In this document: positions 1,860-33,306 of the stretch, piece after piece
Position numbering within the stretch: the first letter of the stretch is position 1
Layout: each line of letters opens with the position of its first letter
Assembly (NCBI GenBank): GCA_035540375.1
Contig: DATLGO010000037.1
Span: forward strand, 1-34,651
DNA length: 34,651 bases
Source of the DNA: Candidatus Thermoplasmatota archaeon
GTDB lineage: Archaea > Thermoplasmatota > SW-10-69-26 > JACQPN01 > JAJPHT01
Direction: 5' to 3'
Notes under the pieces: model-generated
Database searches by the model: none
Told to the model about the DNA's origin: nothing
Seen by the model: the letters and a program-made list of their open reading frames with translations, nothing else
Position numbers and translations under genes: made by a program

Positions 1860-3674
1860 TTAGCCCTCGCGCTCGACGGGCACGAAGGCGACGGGCTCGG
1901 GCGCGGCGCGCACGCACACCCAGACGCCGTTGCGCAGCTCGAAGGCGATGCGTCCTTTGCGCTCGAGGGTCTTGATGTGGTGGTTCGCGCCCTGCTTCGT
2001 GAGGCCGAGCCGCTCCGCGAGCTGCTTTTGCGTGAGCGGCCCCGCGTCGAGGAGCGCGAGGATGCGCGTCTGCATCGGCGTCACCTCGTCCGCGCGCGCC
2101 TCGGGGAGACGCTCGCCGACGGGGTAGAAGCGGCGGGCCCGGCCTTCGCGCCGGCTCGCGACGAAGCGGTGCTGCTCGAGCATCTGGAGGTGATGGATCA
2201 GCGTGCCCGTGTTGAGGTCGAAGGCGCGCTTGAGCTCGCCGTAGGTCACGCCGGGCTTCGCGCGGATCGCCCCAAGCAGGGTGTCGCGGAGCGCATGATC
2301 GAGCACCTTTGGGCGCGAGAGTCGCGTGAACAGGCCGACCGCCGGGGCAAGGAGCGCGAAGCGGAGGCTCTCGCGGCGCGCGAGAAGCGCGAGGCCGACG
2401 GCAGCAAGGCTCGCGCCTCCGGCGGCGCCGGCCGTCTCGAGGGGGTGGCTCGCGATGAAGCCGGCCGGGTCCCCCCGGAAGGCCTCGAGCGGATCGTCGA
2501 CGGGAGGGATCGGATCGCCGTGGAGTGGCGGGGAGAAGATCACGGAGAGATGGAGCTGGTCGTGCGCGGCCGACGGCTTCACGAGGCCGGCGTCGACGAG
2601 CACCACGCCCATCGGCTCGGTGGTGACGGGCACGCTCCAGCCGATCTCGACCTCGCGCGATTCGCCTTCCGTCAAGACGAAGATCTCCGGCGTCACGGCG
2701 AAGGCCACGTCCGGCATCGCCTTGATGGCGGCCTGCACGCGGACTTCGCCGGGGTCGCCGCGCGTGGCGACGACGCGGACGAGGATCGTATCGTTCCGGC
2801 CGATCGGGACTTCCTTCGGATACCGTCCGATCGCTTCGAGCCGGATTTCGGCGTCGACCGTCGGCTCCGACACGGGGGGTTCCTCGTGCATCGGCGGAGC
2901 GGGATCAACGGTTGGATCGGGCGGCGGCTCGTCCGTCGCGTTGCGGATGGCGAGAACGGCCTTTCCATAGCTGCCTTGACCGTCGAGGGTCGACGCGGCG
3001 AACGTCACGAAGCGCGAGCGCTCGCGGTTCATCTCCTCAGGGATGCCCACTTCGGCCTTGCGGAGCGTGTAGCGCAGGATGCGCTCGCTGCGGGGCTCGA
3101 GGCTCATGCGCGAGGGATCGCCGGTTTCGAGGAGGTGACCGGGCGACCGGGCGACGATCGCGGTCTCGATGACGTGGGGTCCCGGGTTGCGGACGATCAG
3201 CTTGAACCGGGATTCGCCGGTCCCCGGGTCCGGCACCGCCCGGGGCTCGAGGACGAGATCGAGGATTGCGAGCCGCGCGGCAATGCGGCCTTCGCCGGGG
3301 TCGACCTGGGTCGACTCGGCGCGGATCACGATGTCCGCTCCATACGGCGCGGCCTCCCGCGGGGGAGCCGTGACCGTGAAGTGTACGATTTCGGAGGCGC
3401 GCGGAGGGATCCGGATCGCGGACGAGGCGGGGTTGACGAGGAACCGCGTGCCGTCGGTTCGAGCGGGGGACGTCGCGGTCACCTGCACGTCGAGCGTGAG
3501 GTCCGTCGGGTTCGTGATCTGCGCCTTCACGACCCGCTCCTCCGCGGGCGCGAGGAGGATCGCGCTCTCGCCCGGGCTCACGGTGAGCGCGGGCGAATCG
3601 GCCGCCGTGGACTGGGCGGCCGCAAGGGGCGCCGCGAGGACGGCGACGAGCGCGAGGAGGGGGAGGATACGCAT
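1860..3674 (-). CDS. Membrane-anchored winged-helix regulator with exported N-terminal domains
   Basis: A 604-residue protein from the ATG at 3674; an in-frame GTG at 3689 would add five residues but spoils the signal peptide (MRILPLLALVAVLAAPLAAAQ). About 390 exported residues follow, with beta-rich segments resembling NEW3/Ig-like modules (TNPTDLTLDVQVTATSP; SEIVHFTVTAPP). Two hydrophobic stretches lie near residues 415-432 and 436-452. A first winged helix (about 455-518; GELKRAFDLNTGTLIHHLQML) and a second (about 525-585; KQLAERLGLTKQGANHHIKTL) follow. This order is known from archaeal membrane-bound transcription regulators. Inference: it senses something at the cell surface and controls genes from the membrane, perhaps the exported proteins beside it. 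Ligand and targets are unknown. Confidence 0.85.
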   Translation of the reverse strand: MRILPLLALVAVLAAPLAAAQSTAADSPALTVSPGESAILLAPAEERVVKAQITNPTDLTLDVQVTATSPARTDGTRFLVNPASSAIRIPPRASEIVHFTVTAPPREAAPYGADIVIRAESTQVDPGEGRIAARLAILDLVLEPRAVPDPGTGESRFKLIVRNPGPHVIETAIVARSPGHLLETGDPSRMSLEPRSERILRYTLRKAEVGIPEEMNRERSRFVTFAASTLDGQGSYGKAVLAIRNATDEPPPDPTVDPAPPMHEEPPVSEPTVDAEIRLEAIGRYPKEVPIGRNDTILVRVVATRGDPGEVRVQAAIKAMPDVAFAVTPEIFVLTEGESREVEIGWSVPVTTEPMGVVLVDAGLVKPSAAHDQLHLSVIFSPPLHGDPIPPVDDPLEAFRGDPAGFIASHPLETAGAAGGASLAAVGLALLARRESLRFALLAPAVGLFTRLSRPKVLDHALRDTLLGAIRAKPGVTYGELKRAFDLNTGTLIHHLQMLEQHRFVASRREGRARRFYPVGERLPEARADEVTPMQTRILALLDAGPLTQKQLAERLGLTKQGANHHIKTLERKGRIAFELRNGVWVCVRAAPEPVAFVPVEREG

Positions 3675-3725
3675 CGGCGGGCACAACACTTGGGATGGGC
3701 GTTCTTAGCGCTTGCGATGATCCGG

Positions 3726-4968: not shown

Positions 4969-6828
4969 CTACGGAAGGATGACGCCGCCGAGCCCCGTGT
5001 TGCCCGCGAAGAGGAACGTCCGTTTCACGTCGCGGTTGTTTTCGGGGTCGACCTCGCCCCACGCGGTCGAGTATCCGCGGGCGTGGATCTCCACGTCGCC
5101 CACGGCGGCCCGGTCGCGGTTCCATCGGAACGCGTGGGACTCGCAGCTTCCGGCCTCGAGGGCGACGAGCGGCGCGTCGGCGACGCTGTCGAGCGTCTGG
5201 ATCCCTCCCGCGACCGCGCGCGCCCACACCGAGAGGCCGCCGCCGTGGAAGGTCGCGCCCCCGATGTTGCACGTCTCGACGACGATGCGGATCGGCGCGA
5301 GCGAATTCGCGACGTCGCCCGCGTCCGTCTGGATCTCGTCCTTCTCGACGGAGACGATGCGGACCCGGAGGTCCGCGAACCGGGGCTTCGGCAGGATGCC
5401 GAAGTAGAGCTCCATCTCGTTGTTCAGGTCGGACACCTCGACGACCTCCCGGGCGGCGTCCGCGAAGGCCCGGATGCGGTGGGCGCCGCGCTCGGCGACC
5501 CACTCGAGCGTCACGCGCGCCTCGGCCCCCGCGGCGAGCGGGGGCACCGAGACGGTGCCGAGGTCGTGGACGTGGTCGAGCACGAAGCGCACCTGGGACG
5601 CGCCGGCGTCCCCGTGCCCCTTGTTGCGGATCGTCGCGACGATCTCCTGGACCTCGCCTTCGACGGAGGACCCCTCGATCGTCATGTGGGCGACCACGAG
5701 GTCCGCGTGCGGGCTCGGGGCCACGTCGTAGCTCAAGGAGCCGCCGTTGTTGTCCTCGTTCGCCTCGGCGATCGCGCCCGTCGAATCGACCTCGAGCGCC
5801 ATGGTGCGAGCGCCTTCCTGCGCGTAGTAGATCGACATCCCGTAGGTCGTCGCGACCCCCGACGCAAGGGGCGGGAACCGGGAGTGGCCATAACCCTGGC
5901 CGTCGAGCTCCCATCGCGCGAAGGATTCTGGCGCGTCAACGTCTCCGAGGTTCGCGACCTCCGCGAAGACGTGGACGGGCTCGCCGTCGACGGGAATCGC
6001 CGGATCGGTCCACATCCGGAGGACCGCGAGGTCGGGCCCCGCGGGGCCGGACACCTCGTAGGTCGCCCATCCGCCGTTGTTGCCGCCGTCCCGCTCCTCG
6101 AGGTTGCCGTAGAGGTCCGCGATGACCGAGACCGTGGCGGCGCCCGCGGCGGACGTTCGGTGCGTGAAGACGACCTCGAGGGTCTCGCCCGCGCCGAGGC
6201 CGCGGGCGTACCACGACCGCTCCTCCCGCGAGAGGTCGTCGAAGAACGATACCCAGAACTCGCCCGCGGGGCGGTCGGCGGCGTTCGTGAAGCGCGCCGT
6301 CGTTTGGATCTCGTCGCCCACGCGGGGGTTCGCCGGGCTCACGTCGATCGCGTCGAACCGCAGGTCGGGGCCGGCGACGCCGTCGTACGAGAAGACCGCC
6401 ACGCGCTCGTTGTTCGATTCGTCCGATTCGGAGACCTGCATCCAGCGGTCGACCGTCACGAGGACCGCGAGGTCGCCCCGGGGGGCGGTCGCGTTCTCGG
6501 TCGCGGACACGACGAGGCGCTCCCCCGCGCCGAGGCCGGCGGCGTGGAAGAACCCACCGAGCCAGCGCGATTCCGTCTCGAAGACGACCGCGAAGGCGCC
6601 CGCGGGGCCGTGACCCGCGTTTGCGACGAGGGCCGAGAACAGGACGGGCTCGCCCGGCCTGGCGTCGGCCGGAGACTGGAAGACCTCGAGCACCACAAGG
6701 TCGGGGGCCCCCGCCGAGGCGGCCGCGCCCGCGGCGAGGGCGGGGGTTGCAAGGAGCAGGAGGAGGGCGACGGTCAGCGTTCGGAAGCGGGTCGGGATCG
6801 GGCTCGTTCGGGTCAACTCAAACCTCAC
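4969..6828 (-). CDS. Exported protein with five CARDB repeats
   Basis: A 619-residue protein from the GTG at 6828. A signal peptide (FRTLTVALLLLLATPALAAG) ends near residue 36. Five tandem CARDB (Ig-like) repeats start at about residues 42, 153, 264, 374 and 484. Four open with a (P/A)DL motif such as APDLVVLEVF, GPDLRFDAID and GPDLAVLRMW, and the repeats close with acidic D-x-x-N-N motifs (SDESNN, ERDGGNN, EANEDNN, VSDLNN, DPENN). CARDB modules are found in archaeal and bacterial adhesins and surface proteins; the partner here is unknown. No C-terminal anchor is seen. A longer frame to 6924 exists, but a CATATG box 27 bases before the GTG and the position of the signal peptide support 6828. 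Confidence 0.85.
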   Translation of the reverse strand: MRFELTRTSPIPTRFRTLTVALLLLLATPALAAGAAASAGAPDLVVLEVFQSPADARPGEPVLFSALVANAGHGPAGAFAVVFETESRWLGGFFHAAGLGAGERLVVSATENATAPRGDLAVLVTVDRWMQVSESDESNNERVAVFSYDGVAGPDLRFDAIDVSPANPRVGDEIQTTARFTNAADRPAGEFWVSFFDDLSREERSWYARGLGAGETLEVVFTHRTSAAGAATVSVIADLYGNLEERDGGNNGGWATYEVSGPAGPDLAVLRMWTDPAIPVDGEPVHVFAEVANLGDVDAPESFARWELDGQGYGHSRFPPLASGVATTYGMSIYYAQEGARTMALEVDSTGAIAEANEDNNGGSLSYDVAPSPHADLVVAHMTIEGSSVEGEVQEIVATIRNKGHGDAGASQVRFVLDHVHDLGTVSVPPLAAGAEARVTLEWVAERGAHRIRAFADAAREVVEVSDLNNEMELYFGILPKPRFADLRVRIVSVEKDEIQTDAGDVANSLAPIRIVVETCNIGGATFHGGGLSVWARAVAGGIQTLDSVADAPLVALEAGSCESHAFRWNRDRAAVGDVEIHARGYSTAWGEVDPENNRDVKRTFLFAGNTGLGGVILP

Positions 6829-6851
6829 CGGAACCGAGGAGGCGCGGGCGG

Positions 6852-6857
6852 CATATG
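6852..6857 (-). promoter_or_regulatory. TATA-like box for the CARDB protein
   Basis: CATATG, 27 bases upstream of the GTG start at 6828, in a short AT-richer patch. This spacing fits leaderless transcription and helps decide the start. Confidence 0.45.
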
Positions 6858-6948
6858 AGCTTCCTAGAAACCCGTCTTGACGCCCGCCCGCGCCCGCGCC
6901 GGGGCGGAGGTCCCCCTGGGGCATGGGATGCGCGCGGAGGACGGAACC

Positions 6949-7400: not shown

Positions 7401-10400
7401 TCAGACCAGGACGCGCCCGATCGCCGGACTCGACCCCGGTCCCTCCCCGACGACGTTCATGCCCGCGACGCGATAGGTGTACGTCACGAGCGGGAGGACG
7501 TTGCGATCCTCGTACGACGTCATGGACGCGGGGACTGACGCGATCGGCCTCATGGGGCCGCCGTCCTCGGACCGATAGACGATCCACCCCGTCGTCGCGA
7601 ACGTCGGGTCGGCGGCGCCCGGCGTCCAGGCGACCCGCAGCGCGGGGATGAGCAACAGCATCGTGTCGACCTTGAGGCCGGTGGGCGCGCCAGGCGGGGC
7701 GGGCGCGCGGCCGACGATCGGGGGCGTGGCCGAACCTTCCCCCGCGGCGTTGCGCGCGCTCACCGCGTACGTCCGATTCTCGCCCGGGCTCGCGCCGCGG
7801 TCCGTCCACACGCGATCGGCCGTTTCGCCGAGGAGCGCGCGCGTGCCGTTCGGGTGCACCCGGTAGACGGAATACGCCTCGATCGCGAGGCCGCCGTTGT
7901 CGAAAGGCGCCCCCCAGGTCACGGTGATCGCGCCCCGCTCGGGTCCGCCCTTCGCCGCGGTCGCCGTCGGGCTCGACGGAGGCGTCGGCGCGCGCGCGGC
8001 CACGGGCGCGCTCGCGGGCCCCGCCACGCCGTCGCGCACGGCCACGACCACGTAGGCGCGCACCGCGCCCGCGGGAAGTCCCATCCGCGTGAACATCGTC
8101 TCACCGGTCTCGCCGACGAGCGTGGCGTTCGGACCTTCGTGGACGCGGTAGTGCAGCCGACCGGAGGCGTTCGCGGGCGGATTCCACGCGAGGGTGATCT
8201 CGCCGACGCGCGGGCCGGTCTTCGCGACGAGGTCCCTGATCGCGCCGGGAGGCGGGATGGGCGCCGCGAGGATCGGGCCTGCCGCGAGGCCCTGGCCGTG
8301 GGCGGTCACGGCGGCGACGCGGTACGCCTTCTCGGCGTCGTCGCCCGCGGCGCGGCGGTCGACGAACGACGTGCCCTCGACGAAGGCGATCATTTTCCCG
8401 TCCGCGACCACGCGGTAGCCCAGCACGGGCGATCCGCCGTCGCTCGAGGGCGGCGCCCACGAGAGGTTGACCTCCCCCGCGCCGGGCCCCGGCCGCGCCG
8501 CGAAGCTTGCGGGGGCGGAGGGCAGGTTTTCGAGGCCCCGCCCGTCGAACAGGATGGCCCGCGCCGCCGACGCGCGCAGGGGCCCCAGGGGACCGACGGC
8601 GTCCGTCGTGACGTTCGCGTGCAAGACGTACGCGGTGCCCGCGTCGGCGACCGGGAGCTCCACGCGGACGCGCGCGTACACGCGCTCGCCCGAGCCGTCG
8701 AGCGTCGAGGCCGAGGCCACGCGCGCGCTCCATTCCCAGGGCGCGGCCCAGCGCGTCTCGCCCGCGAAGACCGCGGCGCGCTCGAGCGCGAATTGGACGT
8801 GGCCGGGATTCCACCAACCCGTCTGGTTGAACGCCGTGACGTTCGCGAGGCCGGTGAAGAAGACGTACCCGACGTCGAAGGTCCGGGCAACCTCGCGTCC
8901 GCCCGCGCCCGCGACGATCTCGCACGCGCGCGCCTCCGGAGGGGCGTTCGCGAGATCCGCCTCTTGCGCGTACGCGGCGTCGGTGCAGAACGCCGCGCGC
9001 GGCGACCGCCCTTCGAACGAGAAGAAGCGGCGCTCGACGTGCGTCTGAAGGGACGATCCGCCCGTCTCGAGCGCGACCTCGGCCTCGAACTCGCCGTGCG
9101 TCGTGAAGAGCGTCGGGTCGGCTCGCCAGCGTTTCACGCCCTTGACGGTCTCGGGCGACATCTCGTGGGTCGTCGGTCCCGCGCACGCGGTGTGGCACGG
9201 TACCGCCGCGCCCGACGCGGCGTCGCGGATCACGAGCGTCGCCCGCGTCCATTCCGCGCCTTCGCGATCGAAGGCGACGATGACGGGCGCATGCGCCGTC
9301 GCGTTCGCGCACGCGGAGTTCGGTCCGCCCTTCGGGGCGCACGTGAACACCGTCCACGGCGTCGCGGGGGACACCCACGCGAAGCTCGCCGGCTGCACGC
9401 TCGCGATGGGCGCCTCGACGACCGAGCGGTAAGCCACGCCTTCGATCGTCACCTCGGCGATGGCGCGGATGCGCCCGCCGATCACGCGCAGGTCCGCGGG
9501 GGCGGCAAGCATTCCGCCGGGCGTCGCATAGGCGTAGACGTCGCCCAGTGGCGTTTCCGGGTAGGGGGCCCGGAGCATCACGGGGAACGGCTTCCAGGAG
9601 CCGTTCCGGGGCAGATATTCGAGCGCGATCGAATCCACGCGGCACACGCCCGGACAGGGCCCGCCCCGCGCATCCTCCGCATCCGCGTAGCCGGCGCGGA
9701 ACGTGAGATTCTCGAGGCGCGGCTCGGCGCCGCCGCGATAGAAGGGCGCGCCGGCGAAGGCGAGGCGCGGGCCGAAGGTGACGGTCGCGGCGCCCGACTT
9801 CCAGGTCTTCGAGGGATTGCCCGCGCCGTCGGTCGCGGTCATCGCGAGCGCGTACGTCCCGAGGGGCGCGCGCGGGAAGGTCGCGTTCACGCCGCCGTGG
9901 AGGCCCCGACGGTCGGATTCGCACGCCTCTTCCCCGATCGCGCACGCGAAGACCGCGGGGGCGCCGTCGAGGGTCCGGACGATGCGCGTGTCGTCGGAAG
10001 GGTCGCGCAGCGAAACCTCGACGCGGTTGTAGTCGGGGATCGCGCCCGGGTCGCGGATGTAGGCGCGGATCGCGACGGGCGCGCCCTGGGACGCCGCGCC
10101 GGACGGGAAGACCGGTTCCGCAAGGGCCGCGGGGGCGGCGACGTCGTAGAGGACGCGCGCGGAGCGCTCCACGGCGTTCGCTCCCGGATCCGTGACGCGG
10201 ACGTGGACGCGGAAGACCTCACCCGAGGCGAGGTGTGCGCGCACGTCAGGGGGGAGGACCCATTCGTAGGCGGGGAGCGTCGCGGCGCGCGTCGCGGGCC
10301 AGGTCGCGATCGCCGACGTCTGCTGGCCGGCGCCGGCCGTGACCCACTTGCCACCGCAACGGCCCGTCCCGGGGAAGCCCGGGTTGAGGTAGCACGTTAT

Positions 10401-11954
10401 CGAATCCTGCTTCTTCGAGAGATGGAAACGGATCTGCGAGAGGTCGAATCCCGTCGCGGGGGGAATCTCGTCGTCGCTCGCCTCGACGCGGAGGGTCGGC
10501 GAGGCGCCGCCGAGCACGCCCGCGAGCGGCTCGAGGAGCGATTCCGACCCCGTGAAGTCCTCGATGCCGAGGCGGACGAACGGCTCGTGCGCATTGAGGA
10601 GGACCTCGCCGCGCTCGCTCTTCCCGTTGCCCGCGTGGTCGATCGCCGTCAAGCGGAAGAAAAGAAGCCCCAGGTCCGAGCGGTTCAGACCGCCCGTGTA
10701 GGCGATGCGCATCGCGGCCTCGTATTCGTGGACGAGGCGGGCGTGCGCCTCCGTCTTGTTCGTCCACCATTCGAGCCTCCAGTCCTTGACATCGGCCGGC
10801 TTCGGGAACGCGCTCCAGTCGATGCGCGCATGCGATCCGGCGGGCGAAGCGAGGCCGAGGAAGCGGTCGCCCGTGGCGTTCGTGAGCGGCGGCGGTCGCG
10901 TGTCGGCGGGCGTGGCGACGAGGAACGTCCGCGCGTTGCCCGCGCCGTCCGTGACGGTGAAGGCCGTCGTCGGAATCGCGCCGGGGTAGGCGTCGACGCC
11001 GTCCTGCGGAAGGGGAGGCGCGCGCACCGTGTACGACTTGACGAACCGATAGGCCCCGCCCGAGAACGTCCCTTCGTGCTGCCACGCGGTCGGCGCGTCG
11101 GCCACCTTGTGCAGGTTCCCGGCGATCGACCACGAGGCCGCGTCCCACGTCGGATCCTTGAGGTCCGCGACGACGTCGATCGATTCGCCGATCCCGGCGG
11201 GCGCCTTCGAGGGCTTCTGGCTCTGGACCTCGATCTTGTAGTCCGAGGGGGCGGGGCAGTTCTCCGCCGGGTGCGGATCCGAAAGGACGCCATCGGGCGG
11301 GCAGCTGTCGAGCCGGACGTTCTTGATCAGAACGTCGAGCCTCTCCGTGCGGCCGTTCGGGACGGGTTGACCCGCGATTTCGCAGCGCGTGGTGATCGCA
11401 ATTTGGATGTCCTGCATCTCGTGGTACGGCTTCATGGGCGTGGAACCCTGGAGGCCCCGCGCGGCGATCGTGGACCGGTAGGTGTATTCCACGTTCGTGG
11501 ACCCGGCCGACGTGGACACGGGGGATGCTTCGGCGTTCGAGTAGGTTGCGGAGGTCTTCACCTGCTCGCCGATGCCGCAGACGTCGGTCGCGATGGCGAG
11601 ATCGACACGGACCGTCATCACGTCGCCGACGACGAACGGGCGGAGCTTCGGCGTGTCGTTGAACCACGCGACGCGTCGCTCGTGATGCGCCGAGGCGTCG
11701 ATGACCTCGCGCGGACCGAGGACGCCGCGACCGTACTTGATCGAGCCGCCCTGGAACGTGCTCGTGAGGTGGTAGGCATCATTGTTCTGCGAGACGCCGA
11801 CCTGGGTCACGATCACCTTGTTCGGCGACGCGGCCTCCGCGGTCGGGGCGGCGAGCACGGCGAACGCGGGCGCAAGCACGAGGGCCGCGACGAGCGCAGG
11901 CGCGGCGATGCGGCGGTCGGTCGTCGGGCGCCGGCGGGTGGAGAAGGACGTCAC
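7401..11954 (-). CDS. Giant exported protein with C-terminal fibronectin type III repeats
   Basis: A 1517-residue protein starting with GTG. The N-terminus has basic residues (STRRRPTTDRR) and a hydrophobic export signal ending near APTAEAA; the RR pair could allow Tat export but is not a good Tat motif. The middle ~1,100 residues form repeated beta-rich Ig-like units, many with phrases such as TDGAGNAR, TAIDHAGNG, VTDPGANAV and TDGAGNPS that mark the ends of bacterial and archaeal Ig-like domains, plus several Cys pairs. The last ~370 residues are four FN3 domains (DGGSPVLGYRVV; FDNGGLAIEAYSVYRV; YTYRVAGMNVVGEGPG). No membrane anchor is present at the C-terminus. A surface or secreted binding protein is likely; its ligand is unknown. 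There is no catalytic motif that I can see. Confidence 0.85.
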   Translation of the reverse strand: MTSFSTRRRPTTDRRIAAPALVAALVLAPAFAVLAAPTAEAASPNKVIVTQVGVSQNNDAYHLTSTFQGGSIKYGRGVLGPREVIDASAHHERRVAWFNDTPKLRPFVVGDVMTVRVDLAIATDVCGIGEQVKTSATYSNAEASPVSTSAGSTNVEYTYRSTIAARGLQGSTPMKPYHEMQDIQIAITTRCEIAGQPVPNGRTERLDVLIKNVRLDSCPPDGVLSDPHPAENCPAPSDYKIEVQSQKPSKAPAGIGESIDVVADLKDPTWDAASWSIAGNLHKVADAPTAWQHEGTFSGGAYRFVKSYTVRAPPLPQDGVDAYPGAIPTTAFTVTDGAGNARTFLVATPADTRPPPLTNATGDRFLGLASPAGSHARIDWSAFPKPADVKDWRLEWWTNKTEAHARLVHEYEAAMRIAYTGGLNRSDLGLLFFRLTAIDHAGNGKSERGEVLLNAHEPFVRLGIEDFTGSESLLEPLAGVLGGASPTLRVEASDDEIPPATGFDLSQIRFHLSKKQDSITCYLNPGFPGTGRCGGKWVTAGAGQQTSAIATWPATRAATLPAYEWVLPPDVRAHLASGEVFRVHVRVTDPGANAVERSARVLYDVAAPAALAEPVFPSGAASQGAPVAIRAYIRDPGAIPDYNRVEVSLRDPSDDTRIVRTLDGAPAVFACAIGEEACESDRRGLHGGVNATFPRAPLGTYALAMTATDGAGNPSKTWKSGAATVTFGPRLAFAGAPFYRGGAEPRLENLTFRAGYADAEDARGGPCPGVCRVDSIALEYLPRNGSWKPFPVMLRAPYPETPLGDVYAYATPGGMLAAPADLRVIGGRIRAIAEVTIEGVAYRSVVEAPIASVQPASFAWVSPATPWTVFTCAPKGGPNSACANATAHAPVIVAFDREGAEWTRATLVIRDAASGAAVPCHTACAGPTTHEMSPETVKGVKRWRADPTLFTTHGEFEAEVALETGGSSLQTHVERRFFSFEGRSPRAAFCTDAAYAQEADLANAPPEARACEIVAGAGGREVARTFDVGYVFFTGLANVTAFNQTGWWNPGHVQFALERAAVFAGETRWAAPWEWSARVASASTLDGSGERVYARVRVELPVADAGTAYVLHANVTTDAVGPLGPLRASAARAILFDGRGLENLPSAPASFAARPGPGAGEVNLSWAPPSSDGGSPVLGYRVVADGKMIAFVEGTSFVDRRAAGDDAEKAYRVAAVTAHGQGLAAGPILAAPIPPPGAIRDLVAKTGPRVGEITLAWNPPANASGRLHYRVHEGPNATLVGETGETMFTRMGLPAGAVRAYVVVAVRDGVAGPASAPVAARAPTPPSSPTATAAKGGPERGAITVTWGAPFDNGGLAIEAYSVYRVHPNGTRALLGETADRVWTDRGASPGENRTYAVSARNAAGEGSATPPIVGRAPAPPGAPTGLKVDTMLLLIPALRVAWTPGAADPTFATTGWIVYRSEDGGPMRPIASVPASMTSYEDRNVLPLVTYTYRVAGMNVVGEGPGSSPAIGRVLV

Positions 11955-29549: not shown

Positions 29550-30503
29550 ATGAGTGGGAAACGGGCGCCCCCACCAACTTTCCGGGGTGTCATTGCTGAA
29601 TTGCCTGATGGTGTTCGACTCCGATTAGAACGTTGCGATTCACTCAACAGAGTTCCGCCACGAACTGGTGTGCCGTACCGTTGGTTCCCCTGCCGCAGAT
29701 TGGGCTGGTGTCCAGCCTGCACGGAGCGAGCGCGGGGAGAATCGGCTATAGCCTACACGAAACTACTGCGGCAAGTTGGTATTGATCTGACCACCACCCG
29801 CGTCGCCCAAATTGCGTTCACATTGCCAACAGTACCTTTCAAAGAGTTCCGCCGCCAGCCGAACCTTGTCGTCTCGGCTTCGTTTGACTCGGCTTGGCAT
29901 GCTATCGCGAAAGTCCTTGTTGGGTCTGGCAGTTCAGGAATAAGCGTCAGCGAAGCCGCTTCTGGCATCTATGGTGCGATTCTTCGATTCAATCCGACGG
30001 GGCGAGCACGACCTGAATTCCCCCGATGGGCACCTACGGTTGAGGCGTTGGTTCCGGTTATGGCCACACGTTCTTCTAAGATGCAAATCAAGCCGGCTAA
30101 GTTGAACCCGGACCGCCTCCGCACGTTCTTCGCGAGTCGCTTCAAAGAGATCCTCCTCAAGAAAACGGAGCTCAATCCAGCCTCGATCACGGCCAGCTCT
30201 GCCGCCGTATCAATTGACGGCGGCGGCCGGTCACGTCCGTTGGTGTGGAACCATGAACTGATGTCGCAACATGCCCGCCATTGGTTCGGCGCCTCTATTC
30301 TTGACGCGGAGACCGCACTGACGCGCTCAAGCCAGGAAGCGGAGCGCACTGCCGCGACGATCAAGACCATTGTTGACATCGACGAGTGCTTACGGTCGGT
30401 CCGGACAGTCGGCTACCGGGGAATACTGCACTCAAGATCGAAAGGGAGGCAAGCCAATCCCTCTAAGGTCCCGTCTCCCCGCCCTCTTCGCCCTTCGGAC
30501 TGA
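29550..30503 (+). CDS. Rep/transposase-like protein with zinc-finger N-terminus and a degenerate HUH motif
   Basis: A 317-residue protein from the ATG at 29550. Cysteines at about residues 29, 48, 54 and 57 (ERCDS; WFPCRRLGWCPACTERARG) form a zinc-finger-like head, as in Rep and IS91-type proteins. VAQIAFTLPT near 85-94 and GAILRFNPTG near 142-151 match their strands, and APTVEALVPV near 161-170 aligns with the usual x-P-H-x-H-A-L-V, so both HUH histidines appear replaced by T and E. No catalytic Tyr is obvious. It may be a nicking-inactive relative or another family altogether. It overlaps the convergent 30463 gene by 41 bp. The similarity is my reading, not a database hit. Confidence 0.55.
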   Translation: MSGKRAPPPTFRGVIAELPDGVRLRLERCDSLNRVPPRTGVPYRWFPCRRLGWCPACTERARGESAIAYTKLLRQVGIDLTTTRVAQIAFTLPTVPFKEFRRQPNLVVSASFDSAWHAIAKVLVGSGSSGISVSEAASGIYGAILRFNPTGRARPEFPRWAPTVEALVPVMATRSSKMQIKPAKLNPDRLRTFFASRFKEILLKKTELNPASITASSAAVSIDGGGRSRPLVWNHELMSQHARHWFGASILDAETALTRSSQEAERTAATIKTIVDIDECLRSVRTVGYRGILHSRSKGRQANPSKVPSPRPLRPSD

Positions 30504-33306
30504 GCGACGCGCCCATCTTCGGCACGACGAAGGCGGCGACGGCGAAGAGCGCTCCGCCGAGGAGCCCGATGAGCATCACGACGCCCGGGTCGATGAGCGC
30601 GACGTTGTAGAGGAAGTAGAGCGCGAAGGCGCCCGCGCAGCACGCGATCGCCATGGGCTTGCTCCACGCCCAGACTTCCTGGCCCGGGAGCGGTCGGAAG
30701 GGCATGGAGGACGTGGCGAGGGTCGTGAGCGCGATCGCGATGCCGGCTTCCGCGAAGTCGAAGCTCCACCAAAGCCCGACGTAGTGGAAGATGACGGTGG
30801 TCGAGGCCACGGCGCCGTACACGGCGATGGAGCGGAAGGCGGCGAGGCGGCGCTGCGCGAGCGCGGAGTCGTCGCCGCGCTCGTCCTTCTCGATGAAGCC
30901 CGCGTACCCGAAGGCGCTCCTGAGGAGCGTGCTCGAGAAGGCAAGCGCGATGGTTCCGGAGACGAGCAGCTTGAACTTGGTGCGCGCGCCGGAGAGCTGA
31001 GCCAGGAGGATTTCGCTCGACCACGCCATCGCGAAGAACACGACGGCGGCGCCGCCGACGACGGGAAGACCTTCGAAGTACTGGTCGAAGTCCCATCCCT
31101 CGACGGCCTCCCACGTGAAGAAGAGCGCGAAGACGACCACGGCGATGAGACCGGCGGTGAGCGACCGGAGGTTCGCGAGGCTGCGCTTCCCGCGGTGGCC
31201 GATGAACTTCGTGCGGTCGCGCAGCTTGTCCTCGCCGATCGCGGCCGCGCCTTCGCGCAGGAAACCGAGGAAATCGAACATGCGCGCGCCCGCGACGGAG
31301 CTGAGCGTGCTCATGGTCCCGCCCGCGCCGGCGGACAGCGCCGCGGAGCTGATCATGGCCGCGGCCACGCCGGTGGCCATGGCGGCGGCCGTCTCGAGCG
31401 GCGAGGCGCGTGGGTTGAACACGAGGACGCGGGCGGAGGCGACCGTGGTCGTCGAGCCGTCGGGGTTCTCCTCGCGCGTTTCGACGCGGTAGTAGCCGTT
31501 CTCGTAGCCCGTCGTGTTCCATCTCGTCTCGCCGGAGCCGCGGGCGAGGACGTGCTCGCGGCCGTCCGGACCGATGAGGACGATGATGGTGCGCGGAACG
31601 TTCTTCACGTTCGCGACGCGCACGATGACATCGCCCCCGACGCCCTCGTCGGGGCGCGCGGGGCGCGTCGAGTTGGAGGTGAACACGAGAACGGCGGGTT
31701 CGGGTTCCCTCACCGTCTCCTGGGTCGGCGCAGACGGCCCCGGTTGCCCGGGTTCGGGCTCGCCCGTCGGGGGCGTGGGTTCGTTGCGCGTGAGGTTGAT
31801 GGGCTCGGAGGCCGGCGCGACGACGAGCGTCCCGAGCGGCGACTCGCTCGCGTGGCCCGCGATGTCCGTCGCGACGAGCGCGAGCGACCACGTTCCGACC
31901 TCCGCGGGCGAGAAGCGCGTGGCGAACGTGGAGGATCCGGTGGACGCGAGCGGCTGCTCGACCGAAGCCCCGGAAGGCGCGCGGGCGACGAGCTTGACGG
32001 TCGCCAGCCCCGAATCGGCGTCGGTCGCGGTCGCGCCCACGTCCACGCCGCCGCCGATGCGGACGCTCGCGGACGAGACGGAGCCGCTCGCGATGACGGG
32101 CGGGGCGACGTCGACGCGGAGAAGCCGGGTGAGGGGCTCGCTTTCGACGCCGCGGAGGACGGCGCGGTAGATGAGCCGAGATTCCCCTTCGGGGATGACG
32201 AACGGCTCGAGGTACTCGCGCTCGACGCCGCCGAGGACGAAGACGACCGTCGCGTTCGGGTCGCTCGGCTCGAAGGACGCAAGCGGCCGGGAGGCGTACC
32301 ATCCGCCGAATCCATCGGGCGCAGGCGGCGAGAGGCGGAGCGTCACCACGGGCGGCTCGCTCGCGACGGTCGCGCTCGCCTGGTTCGAGGCCGCACCCGT
32401 GCCGACGCTGTTCGACGCGGCGACCTGGTAGCGATACGTGCGTCCGGGTTGGACGGCGGCGTCGTCGTAGAAGGGCGTGGCCCCGCGCTCCGCGAGCAGC
32501 GTCATGGGACCTGCGCCCTCCGCGCGCAGGATGCGGTAGCCCAGGATCGGGCTGCCCCCGTCGCTTGCGGGCGCAAGCCACGTGAGCGCGATCCCGTCGC
32601 CCGCCTGCGTGGCGAGGAGCCCCGTCGGCGCCCCGGGAACCGTGGTCGTGGGCGTCGGCGCGGGCGGGTCGTGCGGCGCCTCGGTGAGGCCGAACGTGAA
32701 GGTGACGCGCGCGGTCTGCCCGGCGAGCGATTCTCCGGTGCCGCCGAGCGCGGGGTCGAGCATGAGGTCGAGCTCGAGGACCGTGCCGCCCGCGGCGCGG
32801 GAGGCGGGAGGCGCGAGCCCGTCGACGCCCCCCGCGAGCTCGCGGAGGGTGAGGCGCGCGTCGCCATCGGCGTCGAGGGCCGAGACGAGCGTGGGCAGGA
32901 TGTCCGCGCCGCCCCAGCGGGCGCGGTGGACGAGCAGGTGCGCGTCGAGCGCGTCGGCGCCGCGCGCACCCTCGATCGAAACGGAGGCTCGGAAGCCGAA
33001 GCCGTGCGCGGCGGCGTCGAGCGGGGTCGAGGTGTCGAGCGTCGCGCGACCCTTCACGATGTCGCCGGGCGCGAGGTTCTGCGCCGAGATGAATCCCCCC
33101 GCGCGGGAGCTGGCGTCGAGGCCGAGGGTGACGGTGGCATGGTTGGCGCCGAAGAACTCGACGGTCTCCCCGGACGAGGCGCCGAGCCCCGCGAAGGGAG
33201 CGTCGCCCGGGCCGTCCAGGAGGGCCGCCGTCGCGTAGGCCGCGAGGAAGGCGGCGATGGCGAAGAGCGCAAGCAGGGCGCGACCGCGCGCCGGAGGCGC
33301 TACCAT
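30463..33306 (-). CDS. Large membrane protein: exported Ig/FN3 domains and a site-2-protease-like membrane domain without catalytic residues
   Basis: A 947-residue protein from the ATG at 33306. A TM helix or signal anchor lies at about residues 9-30. Next comes a region resembling camelysin/TasA (45-210; NLAPGDIVKGRATL) with an EF-hand-like DADGDARLTLREL, then an FN3 domain (224-316; SDGGSPILGYRIL), Ig-like domains (317-497 and 535-629) and a Pro/Glu linker. Multiple membrane segments fill 636-930. The last ~215 residues follow the M50 plan: SEILL near 764 where HExxH is expected, FGYAGFIEKDE near the G-A-V region, and MPFRPLPGQEVWAWSK near 868 where N-x-x-P-x-x-P-L-D-G is usual. The key His and Asp are missing, so proteolysis is unlikely. 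The alternative TTG start at 33390 has no support. Confidence 0.75.
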   Translation of the reverse strand: MVAPPARGRALLALFAIAAFLAAYATAALLDGPGDAPFAGLGASSGETVEFFGANHATVTLGLDASSRAGGFISAQNLAPGDIVKGRATLDTSTPLDAAAHGFGFRASVSIEGARGADALDAHLLVHRARWGGADILPTLVSALDADGDARLTLRELAGGVDGLAPPASRAAGGTVLELDLMLDPALGGTGESLAGQTARVTFTFGLTEAPHDPPAPTPTTTVPGAPTGLLATQAGDGIALTWLAPASDGGSPILGYRILRAEGAGPMTLLAERGATPFYDDAAVQPGRTYRYQVAASNSVGTGAASNQASATVASEPPVVTLRLSPPAPDGFGGWYASRPLASFEPSDPNATVVFVLGGVEREYLEPFVIPEGESRLIYRAVLRGVESEPLTRLLRVDVAPPVIASGSVSSASVRIGGGVDVGATATDADSGLATVKLVARAPSGASVEQPLASTGSSTFATRFSPAEVGTWSLALVATDIAGHASESPLGTLVVAPASEPINLTRNEPTPPTGEPEPGQPGPSAPTQETVREPEPAVLVFTSNSTRPARPDEGVGGDVIVRVANVKNVPRTIIVLIGPDGREHVLARGSGETRWNTTGYENGYYRVETREENPDGSTTTVASARVLVFNPRASPLETAAAMATGVAAAMISSAALSAGAGGTMSTLSSVAGARMFDFLGFLREGAAAIGEDKLRDRTKFIGHRGKRSLANLRSLTAGLIAVVVFALFFTWEAVEGWDFDQYFEGLPVVGGAAVVFFAMAWSSEILLAQLSGARTKFKLLVSGTIALAFSSTLLRSAFGYAGFIEKDERGDDSALAQRRLAAFRSIAVYGAVASTTVIFHYVGLWWSFDFAEAGIAIALTTLATSSMPFRPLPGQEVWAWSKPMAIACCAGAFALYFLYNVALIDPGVVMLIGLLGGALFAVAAFVVPKMGASLSPKGEEGGETGP

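Follow-up and report, generated by a model that had tools for sequence, protein, structure and literature searches.

A probable site-2 pseudoprotease with a large exported ectodomain in a Thermoplasmatota archaeon and its small family of relatives

The membrane part of a 947-residue protein encoded on contig DATLGO010000037.1 of a Candidatus Thermoplasmatota archaeon (assembly GCA_035540375.1) is, by the statistics of sequence homology, a descendant of the M50/site-2 protease (S2P) family that has lost the residues of the active site. We regard it as close to certain that this is a dead S2P descendant and that its gene is functional. Its reuse as a receptor-like membrane protein is, in our judgement, evenly balanced, and for the holding of client proteins, a mechanism suggested by analogy, we put the chances slightly below even. 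The window is the whole stretch of DNA that was analysed (34,651 nucleotides). The gene runs on the minus strand from window position 33306 down to 30463 (947 codons, ATG start) and its product has a signal-peptide-like beginning. Its parts, in window coordinates, were as follows.

30463..33306, minus strand: whole gene, 947 amino acids; open frame, with a relative in genome G001 (36% over residues 211–926, E 2e-91)
33220..33306, minus strand: signal peptide or signal anchor, residues 1–29; hydrophobic at 11–29 (hydropathy 2.28) behind a basic start
32662..33219, minus strand: N-terminal exported domain, residues 30–215; no match to Pfam up to E 1
32371..32631, minus strand: fibronectin type III (FN3) domain, residues 226–312; PF00041 with E 8.3e-7, passing the curated cut-off
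32092..32358, minus strand: second beta domain, residues ~317–405; matches in genomes G054, G010 and G021 over residues 277–405
31408..31689, minus strand: putative juxtamembrane Ig-like domain, residues ~540–633; common to the relatives (alignment A1)
31327..31401, minus strand: Gly/Ala-rich transmembrane helix, residues ~636–660; hydropathy peak at 639–657, kept in relatives
31171..31326, minus strand: predicted cytosolic linker, residues 661–712; basic loop with a conserved L..RT motif
30592..31170, minus strand: membrane core of apparent M50/S2P descent, catalytically dead, residues 713–905; matched to the active family by hhalign
31012..31026, minus strand: HExxH equivalent AWSSE, residues 761–765 (H to A, E to W, H to E); ungapped alignment
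30682..30702, minus strand: PxxPLDG equivalent PFRPLPG, residues 869–875 (catalytic Asp to P874); alignment
30523..30585, minus strand: extra C-terminal transmembrane helix, residues 908–928; a mark of the dead family

The exported part, with FN3 and other beta domains behind the signal peptide, was large, and its union with a dead membrane domain agrees with an earlier note on this DNA. The same note had described exported Ig/FN3 domains. One FN3 domain was found; it was the sole Pfam call in a direct family search with the 947-residue protein and also matched FN3 chains of titin and myomesin in the PDB. The Ig-like part of the description is suggested only through the relative in genome G015, in which the counterpart of the juxtamembrane domain is a Pfam Big_7 domain (E 6e-8). 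Copies of the second beta domain also occurred in further surface proteins from the phylum, and it was repeated inside the G001 protein. The loop behind the Gly/Ala-rich helix was basic (nine K+R versus five D+E). The simplest topology, judged from hydropathy and loop charge, would place the ectodomain outside, with the first helix entering the membrane and the S2P core beginning on the cytosolic side.

Taken alone, the window sequence matched a profile of active M50 proteins with an E-value of 0.0099, a level also reached by the best among 13,500 shuffled decoys. It is too diverged by itself, so the case for M50 homology runs through its relatives and not through motifs read by eye. A search of 60 related genomes yielded the close relative in G001 and a distant one in G043 (28% over the C-terminal 325 residues). 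After addition of the G015 protein, alignment A1 held four sequences, all without HExxH. A profile built from A1 only had matches in 238 of 390 genomes of the phylum. The best loci were fetched and encoded mostly single-domain proteins of ~210–260 residues; among the fetched loci, every single-domain protein carried HExxH and nearly all had a PFGPLDG-like motif at the predicted place. The retrieval of proteins with HExxH and PLDG by a profile lacking HExxH was an unbiased test of the M50 idea, which it passed.

Profile-to-profile comparison (hhalign) of nine HExxH-less sequences with 18 active relatives gave a probability of 99.4% and an E-value of 4.8e-22 over 202 columns; three dead sequences, including the window protein, still matched the active family with E 1.1e-13. 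The order and spacing of an M50 membrane domain, previously read from the C-terminal sequence, were thus borne out over ~235 residues, and M50 similarity was also found in the homologues. The active family in turn matched the structurally solved protease MJ0392 (PDB 3b4r; E 4.3e-10), with HELaHK on HELGH and FNLlPfgpLDG on FNLIPAFPMDG, as well as SpoIVFB (E 8.5e-5); the HExxH and Asp motifs were in register. Profiles of the dead family had no S2P match in the PDB, so the structural link is made only via the active family. Pfam PF02163 did not match the 947-residue protein up to E 1, its cut-off not being reached. AlphaFold models from a three-sequence alignment, covering 309 and 229 residues, had pLDDT values of 39 and 48, and Foldseek returned no match under E 1 with a model of this low confidence.

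The stretch A761-W762-S-S-E765 aligned without gaps to H-E-x-x-H, both zinc histidines and the catalytic Glu being replaced. The earlier note had placed the Glu of SEILL where HExxH belongs; this Glu does lie in the HExxH equivalent, but it occupies the place of the second zinc histidine (E765), whereas the catalytic Glu is replaced by W762. The PFRPLPG stretch was found where the note had expected P-x-x-P-L-D-G, aligned with PFGPLDG of the active proteins. The replacement of both histidines and the catalytic Asp was confirmed, and the catalytic Glu and the AGPxxN motif were gone besides. All four catalytic positions were therefore lost in the window protein (A761, W762, E765 and P874), whose membrane core contained no substitute HExxH. 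H, E, H, D and G-P-N were retained in each of the 26 active sequences aligned. Among the nine close dead relatives, checked for catalytic residues as had been proposed, none kept either histidine of HExxH, the placement of the G015 protein in these columns being uncertain, and AGPxxN was absent from all nine. The Glu at the catalytic place was kept in G014, G050 and perhaps the G043 copy on contig C90, and the Asp in G014, G050 and the G043 copy on contig C73; G014 and G050 also had a Glu at the second His. This graded series, from Glu and Asp kept in G014 and G050 to all positions gone in the window protein, makes the path of loss traceable.

When a profile of the nine sequences was searched over the 390 genomes, a clean gap divided the matches: the nine dead forms, from six genomes, all had E-values of 7e-71 or better, and the active proteins followed at 2e-24 or worse. 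The remaining genomes in the orders to which G014, G043 and G015 belong yielded no further dead forms, and viral contigs contained no relatives. A scan of all prokaryote species with the A1 pattern returned the G001 and G043 copies only; in-depth sampling covered the Thermoplasmatota. The dead family is small and patchily distributed; its members come from four families of the phylum, and most have open frames of 881–2323 residues. A branch with 100/100 support separated all dead from all active forms, and the split persisted after masking of the catalytic residues and removal of the three longest branches. A second helix behind the P-x-G..W..K motif was predicted in all nine dead forms versus one of 51 active ones, an independent mark agreeing with one dead family. 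A single origin of the dead forms is likely, but not proven because the branches are long.

The ectodomains differed in type among members: FN3 in the window protein and G001, a PQQ-type beta-propeller in G015, TIG in the G043 copy on contig C68 and Kelch in that on C90. Some members had long acidic cytosolic tails, and the tail of the C68 copy bore a zinc ribbon. The G014 and G050 proteins were 90% identical in the membrane domain, with a dN/dS of 0.10, and 43% identical in the ectodomain. In this pair, the sole testable one, which keeps the Glu and the Asp, purifying selection acts on the membrane domain. Between the window protein and its G001 relative both parts were similarly diverged (34% and 37%), so the pattern of a fast ectodomain was seen in the G014/G050 pair only. 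Among the neighbouring genes, a HEAT-repeat gene with double zinc ribbons adjoined the dead PQQ-propeller S2P of G015 (L078, 4164–5984, plus strand). A Band 7/SPFH (flotillin-like) gene lay near the dead S2P of G050 (L077, 4876–6876, plus strand), and a similar Band 7/SPFH gene was present at a contig edge in G014 (L076, 1–978, minus strand).

Changing ectodomains over a constant dead membrane module suggest reuse as a receptor or holder. The explanation that we propose starts from what the sequences show: the core descends from the single-domain M50 protease found in nearly all good-quality genomes of the phylum, and its two zinc histidines, its catalytic Glu and its Asp ligand have disappeared. 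It has also acquired a preceding ectodomain, complete with a transmembrane helix, and one further helix at its end. Beyond this, the core may have kept the groove for transmembrane helices, and may hold or escort client membrane proteins without cutting them. Holding could be controlled by the ectodomain upon binding of something outside the cell; the whole would resemble the use that iRhoms make of the rhomboid fold. A more elaborate version, in which dead S2Ps of some Thermoplasmatota are the membrane module of one-piece receptors with swappable sensors and form a control unit of regulated intramembrane proteolysis with a subtilisin and an active S2P, as hinted at by the G043 C90 cluster, we consider a long shot.

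The strongest competing explanation, though an unlikely one, is that the S2P helices provide a stable multi-helix base that displays an adhesion- or enzyme-like ectodomain and binds no client. The free change of ectodomain types over a constant base would fit such an anchor, as would the drift of the four catalytic positions and AGPxxN between members. A single helix, however, would be a cheaper anchor for a surface protein. The low dN/dS across the base in G014/G050 and the conserved loop motifs FGxxG and PxG..W..K suggest more than anchoring, and the cytosolic tails of some members, one with its zinc ribbon, also speak against it.

The window copy of the gene was flanked by homoserine dehydrogenase and an amidase/GatB pair, and comparison with the G001 locus revealed no conserved neighbourhood, only a common FN3-type match being shared. 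At window positions 1860–3689 (minus strand), a gene encoded a protein of 609 residues with a signal peptide, an Ig-like region and two C-terminal winged helices of the HVO_0163 and MarR_2 types. Its product is a membrane-associated winged-helix regulator and probably what the earlier note had in mind when placing such regulators in this genome. This gene and the dead S2P gene lay ~27 kb apart and shared neither an operon nor conserved synteny. Two further minus-strand genes of the window encoded large exported surface proteins, one with CARDB repeats (4969–6924, 651 residues) and the other an FN3 protein (7401–11954, 1517 residues).

The active relative of this genome (C9:37928-38584, locus L035) was located on a separate contig from the dead gene. 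It was adjoined by a gene for a predicted exported DUF4344 putative metallopeptidase with the motif HEAGH (L035, 633–1388, minus strand; G000 C9). Active relatives were present in 54 of 56 good-quality genomes and in all six genomes with a dead form. Sequence JAJPHT010000029.1 (L071), titled 'Proteobacteria bacterium isolate Centralia_MAG_189', belonged to the archaeal family of the window, and its title looks wrong. On contig C90 of G043 (L132, 308–8073), the dead Kelch form, an isochorismatase, a subtilisin (Peptidase_S8) with a C-terminal hydrophobic helix and an active M50 gene were encoded within ~8 kb, the frame of the dead S2P being broken between 2353 and the second half. A subtilisin and a site-2 protease form the classic site-1/site-2 pair. 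The cluster hints at such an arrangement, but as a single genome it is an anecdote.

Somewhat less probable again than a simple anchor is a regulatory role dedicated to the active S2P of the same cell, which the dead protein would block or gate by joining it in a mixed complex. Such a role could account for the active relative in every genome with a dead form, for the G043 locus, where the dead and active genes are ~3 kb apart with the subtilisin between them, and would have precedents in EGY3 and iRhoms (PMC10978774, PMC3149277). Co-occurrence was nevertheless rejected as an argument for partnership: the active gene is near universal, its presence beside a dead form is expected, and the dead form itself is rare (6/390 genomes). 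In the present genome the two genes are, moreover, on different contigs.

Continued enzymatic activity through other residues is very improbable: G014 and G050 have E, E and D at catalytic positions (the catalytic Glu, the Glu at the second His and the Asp), but every member lacks both histidines, and in the window protein the four positions are occupied by Ala, Trp, Glu and Pro, in a core devoid of a substitute motif. A decaying gene or chance resemblance is hardly credible; it could draw on the window sequence alone falling within the noise of the active profile and on the frame break between the halves of the C90 copy, and is opposed by the long open frames in most members across four families, by purifying selection in the G014/G050 pair and by profile E-values of 1e-13 to 1e-22. 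The overall interpretation of the earlier note is partly supported, insofar as the sequence points to M50 descent, a dead active site and a large exported ectodomain.

We return to the proposed receptor-like reuse of a dead S2P. Intramembrane proteases that have lost activity and gained domains play important regulatory parts in animals, as iRhoms, and in plants, as EGY3. No archaeal S2P pseudoprotease, or dead intramembrane protease with added domains, was found described in the open-licence full-text papers searched. If the proposed explanation is true, archaea took the same evolutionary step with the S2P fold, giving up cleavage, retaining the hold and gaining a sensor, and the family would open a testable route to understanding how signals at the archaeal cell surface pass through the membrane. 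Among known proteins, the single-domain M50 proteases of the Thermoplasmatota (L035 type) shared with the window protein a homologous core, the order of helices and motifs and the W-x-K end motif; in contrast to it, they possess HExxH, PLDG and AGPxxN, have no ectodomain and have one end helix fewer. MJ0392 of Methanocaldococcus jannaschii also has the M50 core, linked to the window protein via the active family, but is an active zinc enzyme without exported domains. The iRhoms, which recognise the transmembrane domains of their clients (PMC7618786; also PMC6451368) and inhibit rhomboid signalling (PMC3149277), resemble the window protein as dead intramembrane proteases with added domains; they have the serine-protease (rhomboid) fold and occur in animals, and are thus an analogy only. 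EGY3 of Arabidopsis, according to passages of PMC10978774, is a chloroplast S2P pseudoprotease without HExxH that is reported to stabilise other chloroplast proteins. It is likened to the window protein by description, not by sequence, as a member of the S2P family in which HExxH is gone; it differs as a protein of the plant chloroplast, and those passages do not mention exported sensor domains. With its apparent S2P descent, lost zinc motif and conserved gene (selection being seen in the G014/G050 pair), the window family fits the EGY3-like kind of S2P pseudoprotease.
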